Shown here: piece after piece, positions 4,323 to 50,542 of the stretch | Layout of the letters: every line of letters starts with the position of its first letter | Position numbering within the stretch: position 1 is the stretch's first letter | Assembly (NCBI GenBank): GCA_903936705.1 | Contig: CAIZWN010000015.1 | Span: 124,001 to 188,000 of the forward strand | DNA length: 64,000 bases | Source: an uncultured Myxococcales bacterium | GTDB lineage: Bacteria; Myxococcota_A; UBA9042; DTJE01 | Direction: 5' to 3' | Notes under the pieces: model-generated | The model's input: the letters and a program-made list of their open reading frames with translations, nothing else | Databases searched by the model: none | Told to the model about the DNA's origin: nothing | Translations under genes and position numbers: made by a program

Positions 4323-6952
4323 CAGGACCGCCTGAAGATCATTGCAAACCCGGCCAGCAAGGCTCCCAGGGCACAGCAGCACCAGGCAAACAGGTCCCCG
4401 AAACGAAGATAAAGCGTCTGCTCGGTCATCAGGGCCGCGTCAGTCGTGAATGTTTCGGCACCCTCAATGGACGTCTGGTGCAGAATGCGCCCTACAGGAT
4501 CAACCGCCACCGAAACGCCCGTGTTCGTCGAGCGAATGAAGAACCGGCGGTGCTCTATCGCCCGGAAAGCAGCCAACTGCATGTGCAAGTACGGCTCCTC
4601 GGTCTTTCCGAACCAGGCGTCGTTCGTCAGGTTTACCAGGATGTTGGGATTCTGCTGAGCGACCTTCCGCGTGAATGACGGAATGATGCCTTCGTAGCAG
4701 ACCAGGACACCAAGGCGCGCCGGACCGCTGTTAAGCACAGCCACGTCCTCACCCGGCGTGACATCCCCGGCCTCGGGCAACCATTTGCGCAGGAACGGGA
4801 AGGTGCCCGCAAGGGGAAGGTATTCGCCGAACAGCAGCAGAAAATTCTTGTCGTAGCGACCCAGAACCTGGCCGCTGCCCGACATCAGAAGCGACGAATT
4901 GTAGTCCAGCGACCGTTCGGGGTCTTCCGGGTTCGGACCCGAGGTCAAGACCCCCATCAGCAACGGTGTCGTGAAACCACGCAAGGCTGCGTTGCGATCG
5001 GGGTTGGGAGTCTTGGCGTCGGCATCCGCCGCCTTGTCCAGCCCGGTTTCGATCTGGGATGCCGGAAGAGGGGCATCGGACACATAGAGGTGCCGGATGT
5101 CCCGTGGCAGCGGGTAGCCATCGTCGTACGGCAGGAATGCCAGGGCAGCAACCTCGCCCTCGGCCCCCGGAAGCGACGTGACGGTTTCGTTCGACAGGAT
5201 GGCGAGCGTTCCGCTGCGGCCGGAAGCCATGGCCCGGCCCGATCCATCGCCGGCTACGGCCAGGAAGTCTTTCAGAATCCTGTTCGTCACCTTCCTGCAG
5301 ACGTCGGTGCATGCCACCACGACTCCGCCGTCACCAGCGGCCCATGTAGTTGTTCCAGACGCAACCCCCCGCAGGGTGCCCGGGACCGGCTGCTCGCGAG
5401 TCACCTTGCCGTCGTGTGCAACGCGCAGCACGGTTCCGCCGTCGCCAACGGCCACTACGCCACCCTTCAAAGACCACGAACACGCCAGCAGGTTCGCGCC
5501 ACCCGGCTCGGCAAGGCTCTTGACGCCGTGCTGGTCGTAGGACGCCAGAAAGCCACCGTCGCCGCAAACCAGGAATCCGCCTTTTGCGATTGAAGCGACT
5601 CCGCGCAAGGTCACGGTAGTGCCGAGATCCACGGCCTTCCATGAACCGCCAGAACGCCAAAGCGCCACGCCCTGCGCTCCGACGGCCAGGGCGGCAGTCC
5701 CGTCAGGCTTGACCGCTACGGCGAGGAGATCGCGATCGGTCCCGGTGAGCTCGCGCTTGAAGACGTTGCCATCGAAAGTATAGGCGGCGCCCCGGGGGCC
5801 CACCGCCAGCAGACCGCCTTTCTCGAGCGCTGCGATGGCCCTCAATCCCGACGCCTTCGACTCGGCGGCCCCCGCGTCATCCACCTTCCTGGCGCTGGCG
5901 TCCGAGGCTCGCCACATGCGGCCATCAGCGGAGACTGCGGCCGCAATATCGTCTGTCGCTCGCCACAGGACATTCGTCATAGGCATGTACGACGACTCCG
6001 GCCAAACGATCAGGTCGGGCTTGTCGGTCTTTTCCAGATTTGCCGAAAGTATCTGGTGCTTGAGGAGGTTGCGATACAGCATCCGGATCTGCTCCTCGAC
6101 CGGCAGCGGAATGCCATCGCTGCCTCGGGCCTCCTTTTCCCAGATGCCGACGTCGGCCTCGACAACGCCGACCTTGAAATGAGGCGCGGCTGCGACGGCA
6201 GCGTCAACCTGCTGCATCCGCCAGGCGCCGTACCCAAGATCAGCGGCCAGCGCCAGAGTAGCGGGGATGACGACCTCCCACGGAAACCTTCTGCTTTCAA
6301 TCCGGGCAACGATCACTTCGGCGATACCGCCGTTGACCAGCACCATCAGGAAAGTCAGCCCCCCGACGCCGACGATGTCCACGATCTGGATCGCAAGGGG
6401 AAAGTGCAGTTGGCCGTTCCCGAAATACCATGGAAACAGGAACGGGATGACGTGCTCGACTCCGGTCACGAAGATCGGGAATACCAGGCCCCAGGCAAGA
6501 AATCGCCAGCGACTGGTTACAGTCGCGCACAGGCCCGCAGCAAAGGCGAACGACAGACCTTGGTACATTGCCATCAGGAATGATATCGACCACGATGGCG
6601 CTGGCGCCATGTGACCGAAATTCTGCAACAAATCGGCGATCCAGTGAAACCCCCCGAAGTTGGTCACGACGCCCGCAACGTACCCTAGGCCAAAACCTCC
6701 GCGAAAGGTCCGGCCGCGAACCGCAATCAGCAGAGGCACCAGCGAAAACCACTGAAGCGGGAAAATATCGAAGGTGGGAAATGACAGGAAGACCATGCAG
6801 CCCGAGAGCACCGCCAACGGGATGCCTATGGCAAGGTGTGTGCGTGGCGCGCCCCCGCCTTTGCCCTTGCCTGATTTTCGGCCTGACGGGGGTTTTGGCC
6901 CGGTCTTGCGAACATCTGGAGCATCTCCCTTGTCTTTTCGCTGGTCTGCCAT
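4322..6952 (-). CDS. lnt: Apolipoprotein N-acyltransferase with a beta-propeller inserted in the nitrilase domain
   Basis: Lnt transfers the third acyl chain from phospholipid to the N-terminal cysteine of diacylglyceryl-lipoproteins on the periplasmic face of the inner membrane. Start ATG at 6952 is set by a GGGAGGTGAC element and sits one base after the upstream DUF167 stop, so translation is probably coupled. Order: a basic disordered leader (1-38), about seven membrane helices (40-245), the nitrilase domain and a last helix (about 855-872). Catalytic residues by family alignment are Glu319 (WPESS), Lys702 (YDKNFLLLFGEYLP) and Cys752 (CYEGI). The protein has 876 residues against about 500 in the family. 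The surplus lies between Glu319 and Lys702: from about 330 to 600 are six or seven repeats of the form VGDGGTVLR, CGDGGFLAS, AGDGGVVVA, like a Ycf48/BNR-type beta-propeller. The catalytic triad is intact, so the enzyme is probably active. Confidence 0.9.
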   Translation of the reverse strand: MADQRKDKGDAPDVRKTGPKPPSGRKSGKGKGGGAPRTHLAIGIPLAVLSGCMVFLSFPTFDIFPLQWFSLVPLLIAVRGRTFRGGFGLGYVAGVVTNFGGFHWIADLLQNFGHMAPAPSWSISFLMAMYQGLSFAFAAGLCATVTSRWRFLAWGLVFPIFVTGVEHVIPFLFPWYFGNGQLHFPLAIQIVDIVGVGGLTFLMVLVNGGIAEVIVARIESRRFPWEVVIPATLALAADLGYGAWRMQQVDAAVAAAPHFKVGVVEADVGIWEKEARGSDGIPLPVEEQIRMLYRNLLKHQILSANLEKTDKPDLIVWPESSYMPMTNVLWRATDDIAAAVSADGRMWRASDASARKVDDAGAAESKASGLRAIAALEKGGLLAVGPRGAAYTFDGNVFKRELTGTDRDLLAVAVKPDGTAALAVGAQGVALWRSGGSWKAVDLGTTVTLRGVASIAKGGFLVCGDGGFLASYDQHGVKSLAEPGGANLLACSWSLKGGVVAVGDGGTVLRVAHDGKVTREQPVPGTLRGVASGTTTWAAGDGGVVVACTDVCRKVTNRILKDFLAVAGDGSGRAMASGRSGTLAILSNETVTSLPGAEGEVAALAFLPYDDGYPLPRDIRHLYVSDAPLPASQIETGLDKAADADAKTPNPDRNAALRGFTTPLLMGVLTSGPNPEDPERSLDYNSSLLMSGSGQVLGRYDKNFLLLFGEYLPLAGTFPFLRKWLPEAGDVTPGEDVAVLNSGPARLGVLVCYEGIIPSFTRKVAQQNPNILVNLTNDAWFGKTEEPYLHMQLAAFRAIEHRRFFIRSTNTGVSVAVDPVGRILHQTSIEGAETFTTDAALMTEQTLYLRFGDLFAWCCCALGALLAGFAMIFRRS

Positions 6953-6953
6953 G

Positions 6954-7265
6954 TCACCTCCCGGTGGAGTCGTCCAGGTCAAGTGCCAGGGCGACCCGGC
7001 ACGACGCCAGGGTAGCACCCCTCAGGAAAACGGTCTTGTGACGGCTGTGCGCGCCCTTCAGGATTTCGGCAGCCGATGTCCTGAGGCCCGTCGCGGCGGC
7101 AATGGTCGAAAGTACCTGGGCTGTTGCCGCCCCCCCCTCGGGGGCCGCCGTAACCTCGATCCGAAGACGGCCTCCCGATACGCCCGCGACCCTGCATCGG
7201 CCGGCCCGGGGGCGCACTGACACTTCCGCCACCACGCCATCGGGCCGTTCTGACAGCACGTCCAC
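6954..7265 (-). CDS. DUF167/YggU-family protein
   Basis: Small conserved protein of about 103 residues with the DUF167 pattern: VRPRAGR, a basic turn, then AAPEGGAATAQVL, and GAHSRHK before a final strand. The family has no settled biochemical function. I prefer the GTG at 7265, four bases after a GGAGAGG element, because it gives the usual family length. An ATG at 7310 would add 15 residues. Its TGA ends one base before the ATG of lnt, so the two form a tight, probably translationally coupled unit. Confidence 0.8.
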   Translation of the reverse strand: MDVLSERPDGVVAEVSVRPRAGRCRVAGVSGGRLRIEVTAAPEGGAATAQVLSTIAAATGLRTSAAEILKGAHSRHKTVFLRGATLASCRVALALDLDDSTGR

Positions 7266-7377
7266 GTATCCTCTCCGGATGACCGCAGAAAACGGGCCTG
7301 AACCCTGCATTGGATGCGACCCATGCGATAATACACCAGCGCCGGTGTCGGGATGCAGCTGGTGACGGCCAGGATGA

Positions 7378-31864: not shown

Positions 31865-34800
31865 CTATATTGCGGCCAGAGTGACACGGCCGTTCGATAT
31901 CTCCAGCAGGTAGTCGAGCTGGCTGCACGACGTGGAGGCCGGGAAGGTGCTGTCCCGATAGACCCTGATGAAGAAGGTCTCGCCGTTATCGCCGCAGTGG
32001 TGAACCGCGCGGGAGTCAGTGCACTGTGCAACGTTGTTACAGCAGGCACTCTCGGGCGTAAAGACCTCGGGTGGAAAGACGGGAGGAACGAGAATGTCGG
32101 TCTTGCTTTCGCATTGGCCCGACCCGCAGCAGCCCCACAAATATTCAGGAATCTCCGGAACCGGTGGCTTGGTAACGCAATCCTCCTCCTTGTCGGCCTT
32201 CCACTGGAAAACGGTGCCTCCACAGGTCGTCCCTGTGGTTGTACATCCTCCGCGCCGCACTTCCACCTTCAAGGTCCCACCAACCGGTGACTTCATCTCT
32301 ACGACAAGGTTGAACAGGTTGTGGCCAGGTGCAGCGAAGCTGCCGGAATCAACCGAGTCCATGGCCTGAACCGAGTACCAGTCCTCGTCGCTGCCTGGTA
32401 CGATGCGTCCACTTACCAGCGGCAGGGCGCCTCCCTGGTCCCACAGCGGGCCCAGCGGGATGGCATTGGAACAGGTATCTCCCTGCTGCGCCTGATCGTT
32501 CGCGTCCGCCTCGCACTCGCACCCGTTCTGCCAGAAGGGATCCACGTTATTGAACCATTGATCGCACAGATCAACATCACAGGTCGCAGTGGACCGGCAG
32601 ATTGTGGTCCCGTGTGGCACGGTCCCACAGAGGGCGGTCGGGTTCTCGTCACGTCGGCCATCGCAGTTGTTATCGATACCGTCACAAACCTCGGCAACTC
32701 CAGGGTTGATGTTCGGGTTGGCGTCCTGGCAATCGCCACTTTCTGGTGCAAGGTAGTCGCCCCTCGAAGCGCATTGGCATCTGAAGTCGCCATCGCGACC
32801 GTAACCATCCCTGTCGCCATCATAGTAATAGTTGAGGCACCCGTCCGCGCCATCGGTGTTCAAGAACCCGTCGCAGTTGTAATCAATGTTGTCGCTGTTG
32901 CAAACCTCCCGCATCGCAGGATTGACCTTGGAGTTCTCGTCATTACAGTCGCCCGGCTTTGTTGCCGTGAAGAACAAGGTGGCGTTCTCGAAGCAGAAGC
33001 ACTTTGATGACGCAGTGCCATAAGTGTCGGCGTCGCCGTCGTAGTAGTACCAGTGGCAGTTGGTGCCGTTCTCGTCGTTCTGACCATTTATGCAGTTGTC
33101 ATCGATCCCGTTGTTGCAAACCTCGGTCTTTCCCGGGTTGATGTTTGGATCGTCGTCCTTGCAATCGTTAGTGAACCTCGCCGTGTATTGGCCGCCGGCC
33201 GGGTAGCATCTGCACTCGAAGTCGCCGGTACCGTAGTTATCGACATCGGAATCGAAATAGTACCGGGTGCAATTCAGAGCGTTCAGGTCATTCTCGGAGC
33301 CGTTGCAGTTGTCGTCGCGCCCGTTGTTGCAAATTTCCTGCGCCCCTGGATTGATTGACGCATCCTTGTCGTTGCAGTCGGTACCAACCGGGGCACGCCA
33401 GTTCAAGGTGGCCTTGCACAGGCACTTCGACTGCGGAGTCCCGAATTTATCGTCGTCCTCATCGTAGTAGAAATCCTGGCAGAAGGTCCCGCCCTCCTCG
33501 TCAATAAATCCGTTGCAGTTGTCGTCGATGTTGTTTGCGCAAACCTCGCTGACAAGATTCGAGACGGCCGGATTTTCAGGTTCGCAATCGGGGTCTACAG
33601 GCGTGGGGCACTCGAAGTTGGGCTGCGGATCGCCGTCCCCGTCAATATCGCAGTCGCAGGCGTCGCCTATGTGATTACCGTCGAGATCGCTCTGACTGGA
33701 ATTGGCAATGCGAGGACAGTTGTCCAGTGGATCGGGAGTCGGGCAGGATGCGCCCAGCTTGTCGATACCGTCGTTGCCAAAACCGTCCTCGTCGATATCA
33801 CAGTCGCAGACGTCGCCAATCTGATCGAGATCCAGATCCGCCTGGTCCTGGTTCCACTTGCGCGGGCAGTTGTCCGTATCGTTGGGGATGCCGTCGCTGT
33901 CCCAGTCGTTCTTGCAGGCGTCGCCTTCCGGCCCGCCCAGGGTGATTTCCTGGCCCGGATTGGCAGTGTACGGACAGTTGTCGCACGGCGAGCACGCTGG
34001 GCAACCGGGGTTCGCGTTGAAATAGCCGTCAGAATCTATGTCGCAGTCGCAGGCGTCGCCGATCTTGTTACCGTTCGTATCCGCCTGATCGGCGTTCGGG
34101 ACGTAGATGCAGTTATCGGGAGTGACCAGCACGGCACAGCCCGGGTTGTTGTTCAGAACCTTGTCGTTGTCGATGTCGCAGTCGCAGGCATCACCTATCA
34201 GGTCCAGATCAGTGTCGGTCTGAAGCGGGTTCACTATGGTACGGCAATTATCGGGTTTTTCCGGCGTGACGCAGCCCGGGTTTCCATTGAAAACCTCGTC
34301 TCCATCGACATCGCAATCGCAGGCATCGCCCTGCAAGTCCAGGTCGGTGTCAAGCTGATCCACGTTCAGTACCAAGGGGCAGTTGTCCTTCGACAGACCT
34401 GGGTCCGGGCACTTGCCTCCCCGCATGTCCAGGTCAGCCGTATTGGGAATCCCGTCCTTGTCCGCGTCACAGTCGCAGGCGTCTCCGATCCTGTCGCCAT
34501 CGACATCGGACTGAAGCGGATTCTTTACGAACGGGCAGTTATCCAAGCCGTCAAGGATCGTGTCGTTGTCGTCGTCGTCGTCGCAGGCATCGCCCTTCTT
34601 CTGGCCCGGCAGTTCGTCCGAGTCGTCATTATTGGCCTGATCGGTGTTCCAAACGTTGGGGCAGTTGTCCAGGGCGTTCGCGACCCCGTCCCCGTCGATG
34701 TCGGGGTCAACACAGTCCATGGAGCCGTCGCTATCGGTGTCCGGGAAACCTTCGTCAGTCGTCCCATCGCAATCGTCGTCAACGCCGTTGCAGGTCGATA

Positions 34801-35857
34801 TGCCACCATCAGGGCCGTCCGCCGACGCATTGGTGCCCTGGCAGTTCTCGATGCTGCCGTTGTTGCAATACGCCTTGCCCTTGCATGAACCCCACTGATT
34901 AACCGGCAGGTCGCATTCAATGGCGGCAATCAATTCGTCGGTGGATCCGTTGCAGTTGTCGTCCTGGAGGTTGCATGACTCGGCAGACGGCGAATGTGCG
35001 GTACAAGGCTTGTCGCACGTCCTCGTGGCAACGCATTTGCCGAAAATATTCTCTGAATAGCATTCAGTCGTATATCCATCGTCCTTGAATTTCTTGGTGC
35101 ACGGGCATTCGCCGTTGGTCGGCCGGCACTGCTTGACTTCGCCACCGCTGGTTGCAACCGGCACGCAATCGAAAGTCTGCCCCTGATAGTTGGTGCAATC
35201 ACGCGAGGTTTCGCAAGGCGAACCACAGAACTTTCCGTTCTGGCCGTTGTCGATGCACAGAAAGCGTCGGTTCATGGCGCCGGTCGAAGGCACGCAGTCC
35301 TGATCGGCCTGGCACGGACGGCACAGGTTCGGGAACGGGTTGATGCAGAAGAACCGCTTTTCGATGCCGACCGATACCTGGTCGCAAGTCCAGCCCTGAG
35401 GGCAGGCAATACCCGGTCCACAAGGCTTCGAGCAGACCGCGCCATCCATGGTCGGGACGCAGAACTCCTGGTAGCAGTCGGCGAAGGTCGTGCACGGGCA
35501 CAGGAACTGTCCCGGACACCCCTCGATTATTTCCCCGTCGGTCACGTCCTCGCCACCAAGCGGATTTTCAGCAACCGGAACGTCGCCGATATCACCAGGG
35601 TCATCGATCCCATCCGAAATTCCTTCGCTGGATGTCCCATCAGTTGGGATAGTGTCCCTTGTCGTCTCGGAGTCCCGTGAGCTATCGCCGGCATCCTGGT
35701 CGGCGATAATGCCATCGGGCACCTCCGGCAGGAGATCCCTTGAAACATCGCCATTCCCCAGGTCGGTGATTGAATTTCCACCACCACCGCACGAGGTGGT
35801 CAGCGAAAGGGCAATAGCCACCAGCACCAACATGGAGGAACGAAGCTGGGTTCGCAT
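31865..35857 (-). CDS. Giant lipoprotein with thrombospondin-3-like and MopE-like metal-binding repeats
   Basis: 1330 residues; ATG at 35857 follows AGGAGG. The signal ends in LTTSC at about residue 23, a type II lipobox. An acidic Asp/Ser/Gly linker (about 30-115) leads to a Cys-rich region (about 115-290). Residues about 290-360 and 780-1090 hold MopE-type motifs of the form ENCxxxDDNCxGxxDE, known as copper/metal-binding in Methylococcus MopE. Between them (about 390-750) are around ten calcium-binding TSP3-type units such as DxDGDxxxDxxDNCP and GDACDCD. The C-terminal 200 residues look like a pre-peptidase/visual beta-sandwich (GSDEDWYSVQ). Expected location is the outer membrane surface, binding Ca or other divalent metals. 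Function unknown. Confidence 0.82.
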   Translation of the reverse strand: MRTQLRSSMLVLVAIALSLTTSCGGGGNSITDLGNGDVSRDLLPEVPDGIIADQDAGDSSRDSETTRDTIPTDGTSSEGISDGIDDPGDIGDVPVAENPLGGEDVTDGEIIEGCPGQFLCPCTTFADCYQEFCVPTMDGAVCSKPCGPGIACPQGWTCDQVSVGIEKRFFCINPFPNLCRPCQADQDCVPSTGAMNRRFLCIDNGQNGKFCGSPCETSRDCTNYQGQTFDCVPVATSGGEVKQCRPTNGECPCTKKFKDDGYTTECYSENIFGKCVATRTCDKPCTAHSPSAESCNLQDDNCNGSTDELIAAIECDLPVNQWGSCKGKAYCNNGSIENCQGTNASADGPDGGISTCNGVDDDCDGTTDEGFPDTDSDGSMDCVDPDIDGDGVANALDNCPNVWNTDQANNDDSDELPGQKKGDACDDDDDNDTILDGLDNCPFVKNPLQSDVDGDRIGDACDCDADKDGIPNTADLDMRGGKCPDPGLSKDNCPLVLNVDQLDTDLDLQGDACDCDVDGDEVFNGNPGCVTPEKPDNCRTIVNPLQTDTDLDLIGDACDCDIDNDKVLNNNPGCAVLVTPDNCIYVPNADQADTNGNKIGDACDCDIDSDGYFNANPGCPACSPCDNCPYTANPGQEITLGGPEGDACKNDWDSDGIPNDTDNCPRKWNQDQADLDLDQIGDVCDCDIDEDGFGNDGIDKLGASCPTPDPLDNCPRIANSSQSDLDGNHIGDACDCDIDGDGDPQPNFECPTPVDPDCEPENPAVSNLVSEVCANNIDDNCNGFIDEEGGTFCQDFYYDEDDDKFGTPQSKCLCKATLNWRAPVGTDCNDKDASINPGAQEICNNGRDDNCNGSENDLNALNCTRYYFDSDVDNYGTGDFECRCYPAGGQYTARFTNDCKDDDPNINPGKTEVCNNGIDDNCINGQNDENGTNCHWYYYDGDADTYGTASSKCFCFENATLFFTATKPGDCNDENSKVNPAMREVCNSDNIDYNCDGFLNTDGADGCLNYYYDGDRDGYGRDGDFRCQCASRGDYLAPESGDCQDANPNINPGVAEVCDGIDNNCDGRRDENPTALCGTVPHGTTICRSTATCDVDLCDQWFNNVDPFWQNGCECEADANDQAQQGDTCSNAIPLGPLWDQGGALPLVSGRIVPGSDEDWYSVQAMDSVDSGSFAAPGHNLFNLVVEMKSPVGGTLKVEVRRGGCTTTGTTCGGTVFQWKADKEEDCVTKPPVPEIPEYLWGCCGSGQCESKTDILVPPVFPPEVFTPESACCNNVAQCTDSRAVHHCGDNGETFFIRVYRDSTFPASTSCSQLDYLLEISNGRVTLAAI

Positions 35858-35921
35858 CAGGAGCCTCCTGTACCATTGTCTCTGACGGACTCCAACCGCC
35901 GGCCGGATGAAATCCCACGGT

Positions 35922-35950
35922 ATTGTACCCATCGATCAAAGTGAATTCAA
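35922..35950 (-). promoter_or_regulatory. Promoter of the giant MopE/TSP3 lipoprotein gene
   Basis: On the minus strand TTGAAT (35950-35945), a 17-bp spacer and TACAAT (35927-35922). The ATG follows about 65 bases further on. Good agreement with sigma70-type hexamers. Confidence 0.55.
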
Positions 35951-46249: not shown

Positions 46250-49200
46250 TCAGCAACCAGGTTCACGGATGTGGACGCAATAGAAATTATTACAATAATC
46301 GAAGGTACAGGGGTCAGAGTCCACACAATCGGAATTGACGTTACAAGCTGAACAGGTAGGTCCTGCTACGTTCTCGCACAACTGAGACACCGTATTACAC
46401 CGATCCGCGGAGCAACCATTTCCATCGTCGCAACCATTTGCAACTACGACACATGCTCCTGTCCCTTGTTGGCTGCAAAATTCGTATCCACAGCCTAGAA
46501 TCGGTCCCGCGCACTTGTCAGAAACGCTACATGCACCAGTCACTGTGTCGCAAACGTCGATCGTACACAAGTCTCCGTCGTTGCAGTCCGAATCCAGGAT
46601 GCAGCAGCCTGGGATCGCCGAGAACACGCAGCGATGCGTCGACTGGTTACAGGTATCAGAAGTACAGATATTGGTATCGACGCAATCCAAACTGTCCCTG
46701 CAGCAATCGCCACCTGCAATCGGGCTGAAGCGGCAGACATTCATGGCCAGGTCGCAGGAATCGGAGGTGCAAATGTCGTTGTCGTTGCAAGAGGGCTTTG
46801 CCTGGCTGCAGCAATTGGCAATGGCAACGTGCTTGCACTGAGAGGTACCCAGGTCACACGAGTCAGTGGTACACGGGTCACCGTCATCACACGTTTGGTT
46901 GGCCAGGTTGCAGCACTCGGGAATGTTGTCATGCACGCATTGTGAGGCAACCAGGTTGCACGAGTCGGTGGTACACGAGTTGCTGTCGTTACACGTTTGG
47001 TGGGCCAGGTTGCAACACTCGGGAATGTTGTCGTGCACGCATTGCAAGGCAGCCACGTTGCAGCTGTCGGACGTGCATGAATTGGCATCGTCGCAGTTGA
47101 GGTCGTGATCACTGCAACAACCCGAAATGATCTGCACTGGCAGACACGCTCCCGTTACGGAATTGCAACCATTGACGGTACATGGATTTCCGTCATCGCA
47201 ATCCTCCGCTGGGTAGGAACAGGCCCCGGTCAATTGATTGCAGACGGTCCTTGTACAATTTATGGTCGATGGCGTGCAGGTTGGTTTGACATCACAGGTT
47301 CCTGTTGACTGGTTGCAAGATGCGCTGAAGCACAAGTCATTCGAATAGCCGCAGTCAACAGGTGTGTACACGCATTCGCCGCTGGCCGGGTCGCACTTGT
47401 CCTGTGTGCAGGGCTTGTTGTCGTTGCAGGGCTTCAACACATTCGAGCATGCCCCGGTGTTGATGTTGCAAGAGTCGATGGTGCAGAGCTCGCCGTCGTC
47501 GCAAGCAGCGGCATGGGTACAAACGCCGGTGCCCGGAGTGCAGGCATCCCTGGTGCAAATATTGTTGTCCGAGCAGTCCTTTGGAATTGCAACGCACCCT
47601 CCGGCCGAGGCTGAACAAACTGCCGCAAGACAGGGATCGGCAGGCGCCTGGCAAGAAATCGGCTCGAATTTACATCCCGTGACCGTGTTGCATGAATCAC
47701 TGGTGCACAGGTTGTTGTCGTCGCACGCGATATCGACATACTGGCATTGACCGCTGGCAGGGTCGCACGAATCGGCGGTGCACGCATTGGAGTCGCCACA
47801 AACCTTGGCGGTGTAGCTGCAGCGACGCGTCGCAAGGACGCACGTGTCGACGGTGCAAGGATCGGGGTCTCCGCAGTCGGCGTCCTTCAGGCAATCGCAC
47901 TTCGAGCCACCCGTGTACGTGTGCACACATTGACCATTCGACTGGTTGCAGGAGTCCAGCGTGCATGGGTCGCCATCGTCGCAATTCTTGGGAGTCCACT
48001 GGCACCCTGGCAACAACGGGTTGCACCAGTCCAAAGTGCAAAGGTCGCCATCGCCGGCGCAAGCCACGGCGGCATGAGCACAGGCCCCCGTCAACATTAC
48101 GCAGGTGTCGGTAGTGCAGGCATTTTGATCGTCACAGGTGTTGGCCGGAAAGGCACACGTCGTGGTAACCGGGTCGCAAACGCCCCGATGGCAAAGATCC
48201 GGCGAAACACAGTCTGAATTGAAATTGCAGTGAGTTCCGCAGCCCGCCACCGGCACGTGCAGACAACTGCCGGTCGAAGCCTCGCAGGAATCCGTGGTGC
48301 ATGCGTTCCCGTCATCACATGAACGCTCGGTGGACTTGCATTGACCGGACAATGGGTCGCACCAGTCGATGGTACAGGGCAGCCCGTCGTTGCAAACCCT
48401 CAGCACGTATTCGCACTCGCCCGTCGCCAACGGACATTGCTCGGACGAGCAGGGATTTCCGTCGTCGCAGTTCTTGGGGGTGTAGTGACACAAATTGTTC
48501 GCACGATCACATGTATCAACCGTGCATGGGTTGTTATCCGTGCAATCCCAGGCCGTCATGCAGAAACATCCAGGAACATTCCTGGCCGTGTGCACACAGG
48601 CCCCGGAGGTCAAATCGCACGAGTCCAGGGTGCACGCATCCCCATCATCGGCGCAAACGACCGGTTCGTGCTGGCAAAGTCCAGTGCCAGCCTCGCACGA
48701 ATCAACCGTACACTTGTTGCCGTCGCTGCAATCCTTCGGGGGGTGCAGACAGGTATTGGTGGTCTTGTCACAAGCATCCGCAGTGCATGGATCGCTGTCG
48801 ATACAGTCGGGTCGCAGAGTGCTGCCGCACAGCCCGGTTGCGAGGTCACACGAATCTACCGTGCAGGAATTGTCATCGCTGCAATTCTTCTGCACGTTCT
48901 TGCACTGCTGCGCTTCCAGATCGCACGAGTCCACCGTGCACCGGTTGTTATCGTTGCAAGAATGCGGTGAGTACAGGCATCCGGAAAGGCTGTTGCACTT
49001 GTCGTCGGTACAGAAATTGTTGTCACCACAGTCCCGAGGGGCATGGGTGCATCCCTTGGCGGGGTCGCAACCGTCAACGGTGCAAAGGTCACTGTCATCA
49101 CAGTTCACCGGCCGGAAAAGGCATGTTCCATCCGCGCGGTTGCACGAGTCCAATGTACAAAGGTCGTTGTCATTGCAGATCTTGTCGTGATGCGTAACGT

Positions 49201-50542
49201 TGCCCGACAATGGATCACAGATATCGTCGGTGCACGGGTTGGCATCGCTGATGCCCTTGGGTTCAAAAACACATTCCCCGTTCGTCGGACTACAGCCATC
49301 AATCGTGCACGCGTCGTCGTCGTTGCAACCCTTGGGTGCATTGACGCATCCGATCCTGGTGTTGCACGAGTCGTCCGTACACAGGTTCCCATCGCTGCAG
49401 TTGGCAGGGGGATTCTTGCACGAACTGGTCAACTCGTCACAGATGTCATCGGTGCAGGGATTCAGGTCCCCGCAATCCCTGGGCTGGTACTTGCACTGGC
49501 CTGAAGACGCAATGCAGGTCCCGACGGAACAGAAGCCGAATTCGTTGCAAAGCTTCGGGGAATGGATGCAATCGCCATTGACCAGATTGCAGGTATCAAT
49601 AGTGCAGGGCAGTTTGTCGTCGCAATTCCTGGGCGTCAGCACACACTTACCGCTGGCTGGACTGCACGCATCGGTCTCGCAAAGCGTGCTGCCGGGACAG
49701 GATTTGGGAGTGTGTTTGCAGTCACCGGTCGACTTGTCGCAAGAATCCAGCGTGCAGCGATTACCGTCGTCGCAGGACTTGGCTACGCTGACGCACTGGC
49801 CGGACACGCGATCACAAAAATCGACAGTACAGGCGTCGTTATCGTCGCAATCCATAGGGATATAGTCGCAGAATCCCTGAACGCACTGATCGGAAGTACA
49901 GAGATTCGAGTCGTTGCACTTCTGCTGCTGGTCGACGGTGCAAGTCCTGCAACCCGAGGCCACGTCGAAAATACACCAGCCAGTAGTCGGATCGCATCGG
50001 TCCTCGGTGCAGATGTCCTTGTCATCACAAACGATTTCGGTATGAACGCAAAGTCCTGATGCCATATTACAGGCATCATCGGTACAGGGATTGTTATCCT
50101 GGCAATCCGAGGACCTGCTGCAGGTCTTGGGGACATCGACAACCGGGACGTCCTGACCCGCCGGAATATCTGTCCCGTGAACATCGACGATATCGGACGG
50201 GGACACTCCATCATCCAAAGACGTTACGGAGTCATCAGTGATTTCAATTTGCGGAACGTCAAGTTCGTTGACGTCCACCGAGACGCTGTCGTCGCGACCG
50301 GGATCCCGCGAGGCGTCATCACGACCTACGACAGCATCCAAGTCAGTCTGAACATCAAGGATCCCGTCATCGACCACGGATGCATCGACGTCGGTCAGGT
50401 CCTCGACGTCCGCTCCCAGATCTTCTTCGTAAAGATCGTCCCACGGATTTCCCGGTTTTGCCTTGCTGCATCCAGCAGCCATTGAAAGCACAACCGCAAG
50501 CAGCACGACCTGGCCCTTTCGGAACCTTGCGACCAACTTCAT
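46250..50542 (-). CDS. Giant Cys-repeat lipoprotein (CxDxNxCTxDxC repeats)
   Basis: 1430 residues. The leader ends in MAAGC (about Cys25), a lipobox. An acidic Asp/Val-rich linker (about 35-140) is followed by several dozen tandem units of about 25-34 residues of the form C-(D)-D-x-N-x-C-T-x-D-x-C-(D)-x-x-x-G-x-C. These are similar to the slime-mould CTDC (Dicty) repeat known in myxobacterial surface proteins, and each carries about six cysteines and several Asp likely to bind Ca. The protein ends directly after a repeat with no anchoring helix. GGAAGGCAG precedes the ATG. Probably an extended, disulfide-rich surface fibre. Confidence 0.78.
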   Translation of the reverse strand: MKLVARFRKGQVVLLAVVLSMAAGCSKAKPGNPWDDLYEEDLGADVEDLTDVDASVVDDGILDVQTDLDAVVGRDDASRDPGRDDSVSVDVNELDVPQIEITDDSVTSLDDGVSPSDIVDVHGTDIPAGQDVPVVDVPKTCSRSSDCQDNNPCTDDACNMASGLCVHTEIVCDDKDICTEDRCDPTTGWCIFDVASGCRTCTVDQQQKCNDSNLCTSDQCVQGFCDYIPMDCDDNDACTVDFCDRVSGQCVSVAKSCDDGNRCTLDSCDKSTGDCKHTPKSCPGSTLCETDACSPASGKCVLTPRNCDDKLPCTIDTCNLVNGDCIHSPKLCNEFGFCSVGTCIASSGQCKYQPRDCGDLNPCTDDICDELTSSCKNPPANCSDGNLCTDDSCNTRIGCVNAPKGCNDDDACTIDGCSPTNGECVFEPKGISDANPCTDDICDPLSGNVTHHDKICNDNDLCTLDSCNRADGTCLFRPVNCDDSDLCTVDGCDPAKGCTHAPRDCGDNNFCTDDKCNSLSGCLYSPHSCNDNNRCTVDSCDLEAQQCKNVQKNCSDDNSCTVDSCDLATGLCGSTLRPDCIDSDPCTADACDKTTNTCLHPPKDCSDGNKCTVDSCEAGTGLCQHEPVVCADDGDACTLDSCDLTSGACVHTARNVPGCFCMTAWDCTDNNPCTVDTCDRANNLCHYTPKNCDDGNPCSSEQCPLATGECEYVLRVCNDGLPCTIDWCDPLSGQCKSTERSCDDGNACTTDSCEASTGSCLHVPVAGCGTHCNFNSDCVSPDLCHRGVCDPVTTTCAFPANTCDDQNACTTDTCVMLTGACAHAAVACAGDGDLCTLDWCNPLLPGCQWTPKNCDDGDPCTLDSCNQSNGQCVHTYTGGSKCDCLKDADCGDPDPCTVDTCVLATRRCSYTAKVCGDSNACTADSCDPASGQCQYVDIACDDNNLCTSDSCNTVTGCKFEPISCQAPADPCLAAVCSASAGGCVAIPKDCSDNNICTRDACTPGTGVCTHAAACDDGELCTIDSCNINTGACSNVLKPCNDNKPCTQDKCDPASGECVYTPVDCGYSNDLCFSASCNQSTGTCDVKPTCTPSTINCTRTVCNQLTGACSYPAEDCDDGNPCTVNGCNSVTGACLPVQIISGCCSDHDLNCDDANSCTSDSCNVAALQCVHDNIPECCNLAHQTCNDSNSCTTDSCNLVASQCVHDNIPECCNLANQTCDDGDPCTTDSCDLGTSQCKHVAIANCCSQAKPSCNDNDICTSDSCDLAMNVCRFSPIAGGDCCRDSLDCVDTNICTSDTCNQSTHRCVFSAIPGCCILDSDCNDGDLCTIDVCDTVTGACSVSDKCAGPILGCGYEFCSQQGTGACVVVANGCDDGNGCSADRCNTVSQLCENVAGPTCSACNVNSDCVDSDPCTFDYCNNFYCVHIREPGC
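46889..47092 (-). repeat. Recent tandem duplication of a 102-bp unit inside the Cys-repeat gene
   Basis: Two direct copies, from 46889 and from 46991, spaced exactly 102 bp (34 codons). The first 47 bases of each copy differ at only a few positions, and the encoded unit includes CVHDNIPECCNLA twice. This is much closer than other repeats of the gene. Confidence 0.65.

Follow-up and report, generated by a model that had tools for sequence, protein, structure and literature searches.

E. coli cannot live without apolipoprotein N-acyltransferase (Lnt), and the enzyme is regarded as uniform, with nearly any lipoprotein as its substrate. The 64,000-nucleotide stretch of DNA analysed here (the window), from an uncultured member of the Myxococcota, encodes an Lnt that departs from this picture: about 310 extra residues lie between its catalytic glutamate and lysine, and an earlier note made from the sequence had read the insert as a seven-blade-like propeller. 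We asked whether this protein, here called Lnt2, is still an N-acyltransferase, what the extra domain is and where it sits, how widely it occurs, and what it may do.

Lnt2 and its catalytic residues

The 876-residue protein matches the curated equivalog model TIGR00546 in two stretches (E 5.7e-66, 223 bits, cut-off 132.9), and both LNT_N and CN_hydrolase of Pfam match it, its N-terminal part being the LNT_N membrane domain and its C-terminal part the latter half of the nitrilase domain (Table 1). Its start codon is the ATG at 6952 on the minus strand, and full-length homologues occur in about 40 genomes. The membrane domain of Lnt comprises eight helices fused to a periplasmic nitrilase domain; our AlphaFold2 model and its Foldseek matches to Lnt structures give the same fusion for Lnt2, judged by the helices overall and not by a one-by-one count.

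In an alignment of 24 homologues, E319, K702, G709, E710, C752, Y753, E754, W780 and F781 are invariant (24 of 24). These residues are the counterparts of the E. coli triad and of G342, E343, Y388, E389, W415 and F416, the majority of which the E. coli enzyme requires for activity (PMC5500890), and they include those that mark a protein as an Lnt, namely the Glu-Lys-Cys triad and the equivalents of E343, Y388, E389 and F416. The earlier note had placed the insert between the catalytic Glu and Lys with all three catalytic residues kept, and the alignment agrees: E319, K702 and C752 are all retained, with a Glu-to-Lys distance of 383 residues as against 68 in E. coli (E267 to K335) and about 60-80 in ordinary Lnt. 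Gly145, in the L1 loop, is an essential residue of the E. coli enzyme. Lnt2 has no counterpart of it, its alignment to PDB Lnt showing a three-residue gap before FPW; the residue is equally missing from ordinary Lnt of Myxococcota, L178 and L049 among them, so we regard its absence as a lineage trait and not as a defining feature. Overall, the 876-residue protein is a true member of the apolipoprotein N-acyltransferase family with its catalytic set intact.

The gene lies directly downstream of a YggU gene, which also adjoins lnt at three other loci (L154, L155 and L156). A comparison of neighbourhoods revealed no constant partner gene beside lnt, the upstream genes varying by lineage. We therefore rejected neighbouring genes as a clue to function, since the upstream gene may be YggU, a YegS/diacylglycerol-kinase-type gene or a small lipoprotein-like gene depending on the lineage. 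The YegS-type gene lies directly upstream of lnt in several lineages, overlapping it or nearly so (L159:4815-5765, L171:3741-4688, L175:2223-3326). Elsewhere on the minus strand, the window encodes a 1430-residue protein with 15 Dicty_CTDC repeats (46250-50542) and a 1355-residue protein with thrombospondin type 3 and MopE metal-binding motifs (31865-35932).

Table 1. Features of the propeller-bearing lnt gene and its upstream neighbour, in window coordinates
Feature	Position	Strand	Basis
YggU/DUF167 gene	6954..7310	-	Pfam DUF167 E 5e-16; stop one base before the lnt ATG
lnt gene, propeller form (Lnt2), 876 aa	4322..6952	-	ORF; TIGR00546; LNT_N and CN_hydrolase; homologues
Membrane domain (LNT_N), residues 40-256	6185..6835	-	Pfam LNT_N at residues 52-210; helices in AlphaFold2 model
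Catalytic Glu319 (E. coli E267), WPES motif	5996..5998	-	invariant column
Predicted seven-bladed beta-propeller insert, residues ~337-606	5135..5944	-	AlphaFold2 (pLDDT mostly 83-96); Foldseek 7bid; profile matches
Cys548 and Cys552, blade 6, possible periplasmic disulfide	5297..5311	-	cysteines invariant in nine family members; disulfide putative
Predicted velcro strand, residues 601-606, completing blade 1 (residues 337-356)	5135..5152	-	strand order in model; pairing taken from order
Linker, residues 607-660 (54 residues; YPLPRD..YVSDAPLP..DRNAALRGF)	4973..5134	-	alignment; common to propeller-less relatives
Catalytic Lys702 (E. coli K335)	4847..4849	-	invariant; aligned to PDB Lnt
Glu710, "fourth catalytic residue" (E. 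coli E343)	4823..4825	-	invariant; E. coli role from PMC5500890
Catalytic Cys752 (E. coli C387), CYE motif	4697..4699	-	invariant C752, Y753, E754

The inserted domain and its site

The AlphaFold2 model of Lnt2, built on a 24-row alignment, has a mean pLDDT of 87 and a pTM of 0.85. Within residues 337-606 its strands fall into seven groups of four, bearing out the seven blades of the earlier note, which had proposed structure prediction and a blade count as the check. Propellers are usually closed by a velcro arrangement in which the last strand completes the first blade. The strand order in the model matches this arrangement, and the insert is predicted to be a seven-bladed propeller closed in a ring. 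The note's span of 5080-5965 (residues 330-624) includes this insert; the insert proper is narrower and is followed by a separate linker. For a two-domain protein, the pTM suggests that the relative placement of the domains is predicted with some confidence.

In a Foldseek search of the model against the PDB, the top entries were Lnt crystal structures (5vrg, TMt 0.81), followed by designed propellers of seven blades (7bid, TMt 0.79, rmsd 3.2). A profile built from 23 inserts matched designed propellers (E down to 7e-22), PkwA (5e-15) and Ycf48 chains (~1e-12), the designed WD-type propellers outscoring the Ycf48 chains. Pfam PSII_BNR (PF14870) matches four of the 23 inserts (best E 1.1e-7), the window's own insert taken alone falling below significance against it. 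The likeness to Ycf48/BNR blades that the note had seen is in this way supported by profile similarity. In blade 6, the pair C548/C552 would fit an oxidising environment such as the periplasm.

The chain departs from the core fold immediately behind the strand whose end carries the catalytic Glu, and rejoins it ahead of the following helix. In E. coli Lnt, arm 5, defined in a figure legend as the loop from beta-1 to alpha-2, is among the loops that are ringed around Cys387 and form the substrate funnel (PMC5500888). We take arm 5 to be the loop after E267, which would make it the host of the propeller. A diacylated lipoprotein has to insert its N-terminus, its mature part remaining outside (PMC5500888), and the opening by which the substrate peptide exits is formed by arms 3 and 7 (PMC10313180). 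The earlier note expected the domain at the active site, on the periplasmic face, and the insertion point in arm 5 supports a placement next to the active site on that face. The note's wording, that the propeller would sit over the active site, is supported only approximately, by the attachment of the domain to arm 5 of the funnel rim (PMC5500888).

Other Lnt vary at the same position. Propeller-less relatives share a conserved linker (PS.APL...DR.A..RGF.TPLLFG), with Glu-to-Lys spacings of 92 to 199, and Lnt of a sister family, f41 (L166, L167, L193, L194, L195, L196, L197), carry at the arm-5 site a domain of about 100 residues with three predicted helices and no propeller. Since this helical domain occupies the propeller's site, arm 5 is a place where domains get added, an insertion hotspot in the Lnt of Myxococcota. 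The helical inserts of the f41 Lnt and of L171 (f42) have conserved cysteines and a CPF/CPY motif.

Distribution, copy number and descent

Our search for the propeller Lnt covered the phylum Myxococcota, with 52 genomes of the window's uncultured class and 232 of other classes. The earlier note had suggested looking for the same insertion in other Myxococcota Lnt; we found it in 46 of the 52 class genomes and, among the matches listed, in none of the 232 sampled from other classes. The 46 include four genomes in which the gene is split over two contigs (G005, G021, G030, G046) and one in which it is cut by a contig end (G036). Chance, an assembly artefact or a chimera is ruled out by the recurrence of the same insert at the same place in 46 genomes. 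One insert (L019, G007:C107, in G007) is shortened to 198 residues, too few for seven blades, to be explained by true loss of sequence between blades or by collapse in the assembly. The note knew of no described function for such an Lnt, and our literature search found no paper joining Lnt with a propeller or a domain insertion; as far as searched, the architecture is undescribed.

The note had treated Lnt2 as the Lnt gene of its genome; this needs correction, as the genome also has a plain Lnt (Lnt1) at G000:C8:69489-70691, in a 548-codon frame. Plain full-length Lnt1 occurs in about 40 of the 52 class genomes, and most class genomes pair a propeller Lnt with a plain one. This pairing favours a reading in which the propeller form has left housekeeping N-acylation and specialised, serving some lipoproteins only or another acceptor, while Lnt1 does the general work. 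Against it, G013, G020, G027 and G028 hold the propeller form alone above the cut-off, as do G030 and G035, and core trees group the propeller form with the ordinary Myxococcota Lnt, leaving Lnt1 as a separate, divergent line. We regard specialisation as possible but doubtful. The tree position suggests that Lnt2 belongs to the lineage whose members act as the principal apolipoprotein N-acyltransferase of Myxococcota.

Several of the propeller-only genomes are nearly complete (G013 96%, G020 94%, G028 90%), absence from an incomplete assembly being a weak kind of evidence, and these three keep Lgt-like, LspA and LolA matches. Since near-complete genomes hold the propeller form alone, the propeller Lnt is probably a working N-acyltransferase; if bacteria of this type N-acylate their lipoproteins at all, the propeller enzyme would be the one to do so. 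Five genomes (G000, G004, G013, G016, G020) have three to five Lgt-like matches each, some of which may be pieces of one gene, and in the same five the LspA matches lie inside open frames of 312-426 residues, about twice the usual size. In family f19 (G058, G067, G110, G121, G174 and others), Lnt matches are absent or very weak, single-contig genomes included.

Within the window's family, two propeller-less copies, L164 (G004:C18) and L165 (G010:C138), are nested among propeller forms. A tree test rejected a strict propeller-only clade (p 0.0001), which indicates that these copies lost the propeller; a single gain followed by losses was not rejected (AU p 0.25), and the tree leaves a single gain or several gains undecided. 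Plain Lnt1 was not found in either G004 or G010, the two bearers of the propeller-less duplicate, as if one plain enzyme must be kept. For G004, the specialisation reading would see in this duplicate a retained pair of plain and propeller enzymes. A third genome, G016, has a propeller-less Lnt2. These cases show that the domain is dispensable, a point against the binding role favoured below.

The loss in L164 and L165 and the absence in G016, together with the helical domain of f41 and the shorter linkers elsewhere that show arm 5 accepting varied inserts, are what one would expect of a tolerated insertion whose role is structural only, either to steady arm 5 or to keep the enzyme at a distance from peptidoglycan, and not that of a specific binder. 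We consider this distinctly unlikely, as the domain is kept in 46 of 52 genomes over deep divergence with a dN/dS below 1, and charged residues on its surface are invariant in the family. In the window's genus, the insert has a dN/dS of 0.20-0.30, compared with 0.13-0.19 in the membrane domain; between L011 and L012, which are further apart, that of the insert reaches 0.53, which points to looser constraint there. Identity to L006 is 65% in the insert as against 76-83% in the catalytic core, so the insert evolves somewhat faster. Taken together, these ratios indicate that the propeller is under purifying selection.

Composition gives no sign of a recent foreign origin of the insert (GC3 is 0.75 in the insert and 0.73 in the remainder of the gene). 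The same genome encodes further propeller proteins, secreted or lipoprotein-like, whose blades are of the insert's type (C83:186192-187847 and others); they are a possible source of the insert.

Possible roles and known counterparts

The reading we favour, and hold with slightly more belief than doubt, is that Lnt2 is a true Lnt that performs normal ping-pong N-acylation, with its funnel-rim propeller acting as a protein-binding platform that would most plausibly hold or screen the mature part of lipoproteins. Arm 5 would owe its size to a seven-bladed propeller resembling those in the genome's own secreted lipoproteins, and the enzyme would run the usual two half-reactions. The propeller would lie at the periplasmic rim of the funnel, presumably oriented near the exit of the substrate polypeptide, and would there bind a protein. 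Because the lipoprotein keeps its N-terminus inside and its mature part outside, a propeller at the rim is well placed to hold or screen the substrate; as a first choice, it may do so for diacylated lipoproteins in the second half-reaction, by analogy with Ycf48, a seven-bladed propeller that binds newly made D1 (PMC10403576).

The most conserved charged residues of the propeller lie on blades 2-3 (R387, R400, E401, D406, R407 and R433, invariant in the family). This charged patch is its most conserved surface and would suit a fixed partner better than many substrates. It bears on the main rival to our reading, in which the propeller leaves the substrate untouched and instead docks a partner in the periplasm or inner membrane, such as LolCDE, a chaperone or an envelope complex, and so couples N-acylation to the next step. 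Propellers are common as scaffolds, and LolA is present in propeller-only genomes (G013, G020, G028), both of which fit docking, while the lack of a conserved neighbour gene as partner speaks against it; we would not expect docking to prove right, though it deserves serious weight. Specialisation of one of the two Lnt comes next among the rivals. Beta-propellers bind many things, so the likeness to Ycf48 does not fix the ligand. Given that the form is conserved across the class and is the only Lnt detected in some genomes, its propeller probably engages protein partners or substrates as the third fatty acid is attached to lipoproteins.

The holding or screening that we favour could also be carried further: the propeller might make N-acylation selective, admitting or holding only some diacylated lipoproteins, so that the pair of Lnt sets which become triacylated and enter the Lol route. 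We think this unlikely. The note had proposed that the domain could select lipoprotein substrates or sense unfolded ones, with a possible link to the giant lipoproteins of this genome; these would be candidate roles. If a class-wide protein-binding domain does sit in the active-site rim, it would be natural evidence that the mature part of a lipoprotein, or a partner, can matter at N-acylation. Removing the insert offers a ready-made test of the propeller's role, and arm 5, as a site where domains are added, is useful for studying differences in lipoprotein maturation and sorting in Myxococcota.

The propeller Lnt is a variant of a known enzyme rather than a separate kind of system, and it is real and widespread in one class. 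Compared with the Lnt of E. coli and P. aeruginosa (TIGR00546; PDB 5vrg, 5n6h, 5n6m), it has the same membrane and nitrilase-like domains, triad, equivalents of E343, Y388, E389 and W415-F416 and overall fold, and differs in the 270-residue propeller and extended linker of arm 5. The f41 Lnt, of the same clade, differs in the smaller, helical nature of its arm-5 domain. The propeller of the same genome at G000:C83:186192-187847 shares the insert's blade type and has a lipoprotein-like signal, but has more blades and no enzyme. Ycf48/HCF136 (PF14870, PSII_BNR) resembles the insert in its seven blades, in profile and, by analogy, as a protein-binding domain on the outer side of the membrane; Ycf48 is a free lipoprotein that binds D1, whereas the Lnt2 propeller lies inside an enzyme. 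The Ppm1-type fused or paralogous Lnt of mycobacteria are known cases of Lnt with another domain or with paralogues. In the Ppm1-type fusion the extra domain is a glycosyltransferase at one end of the protein, not an insert in the rim of the active site.
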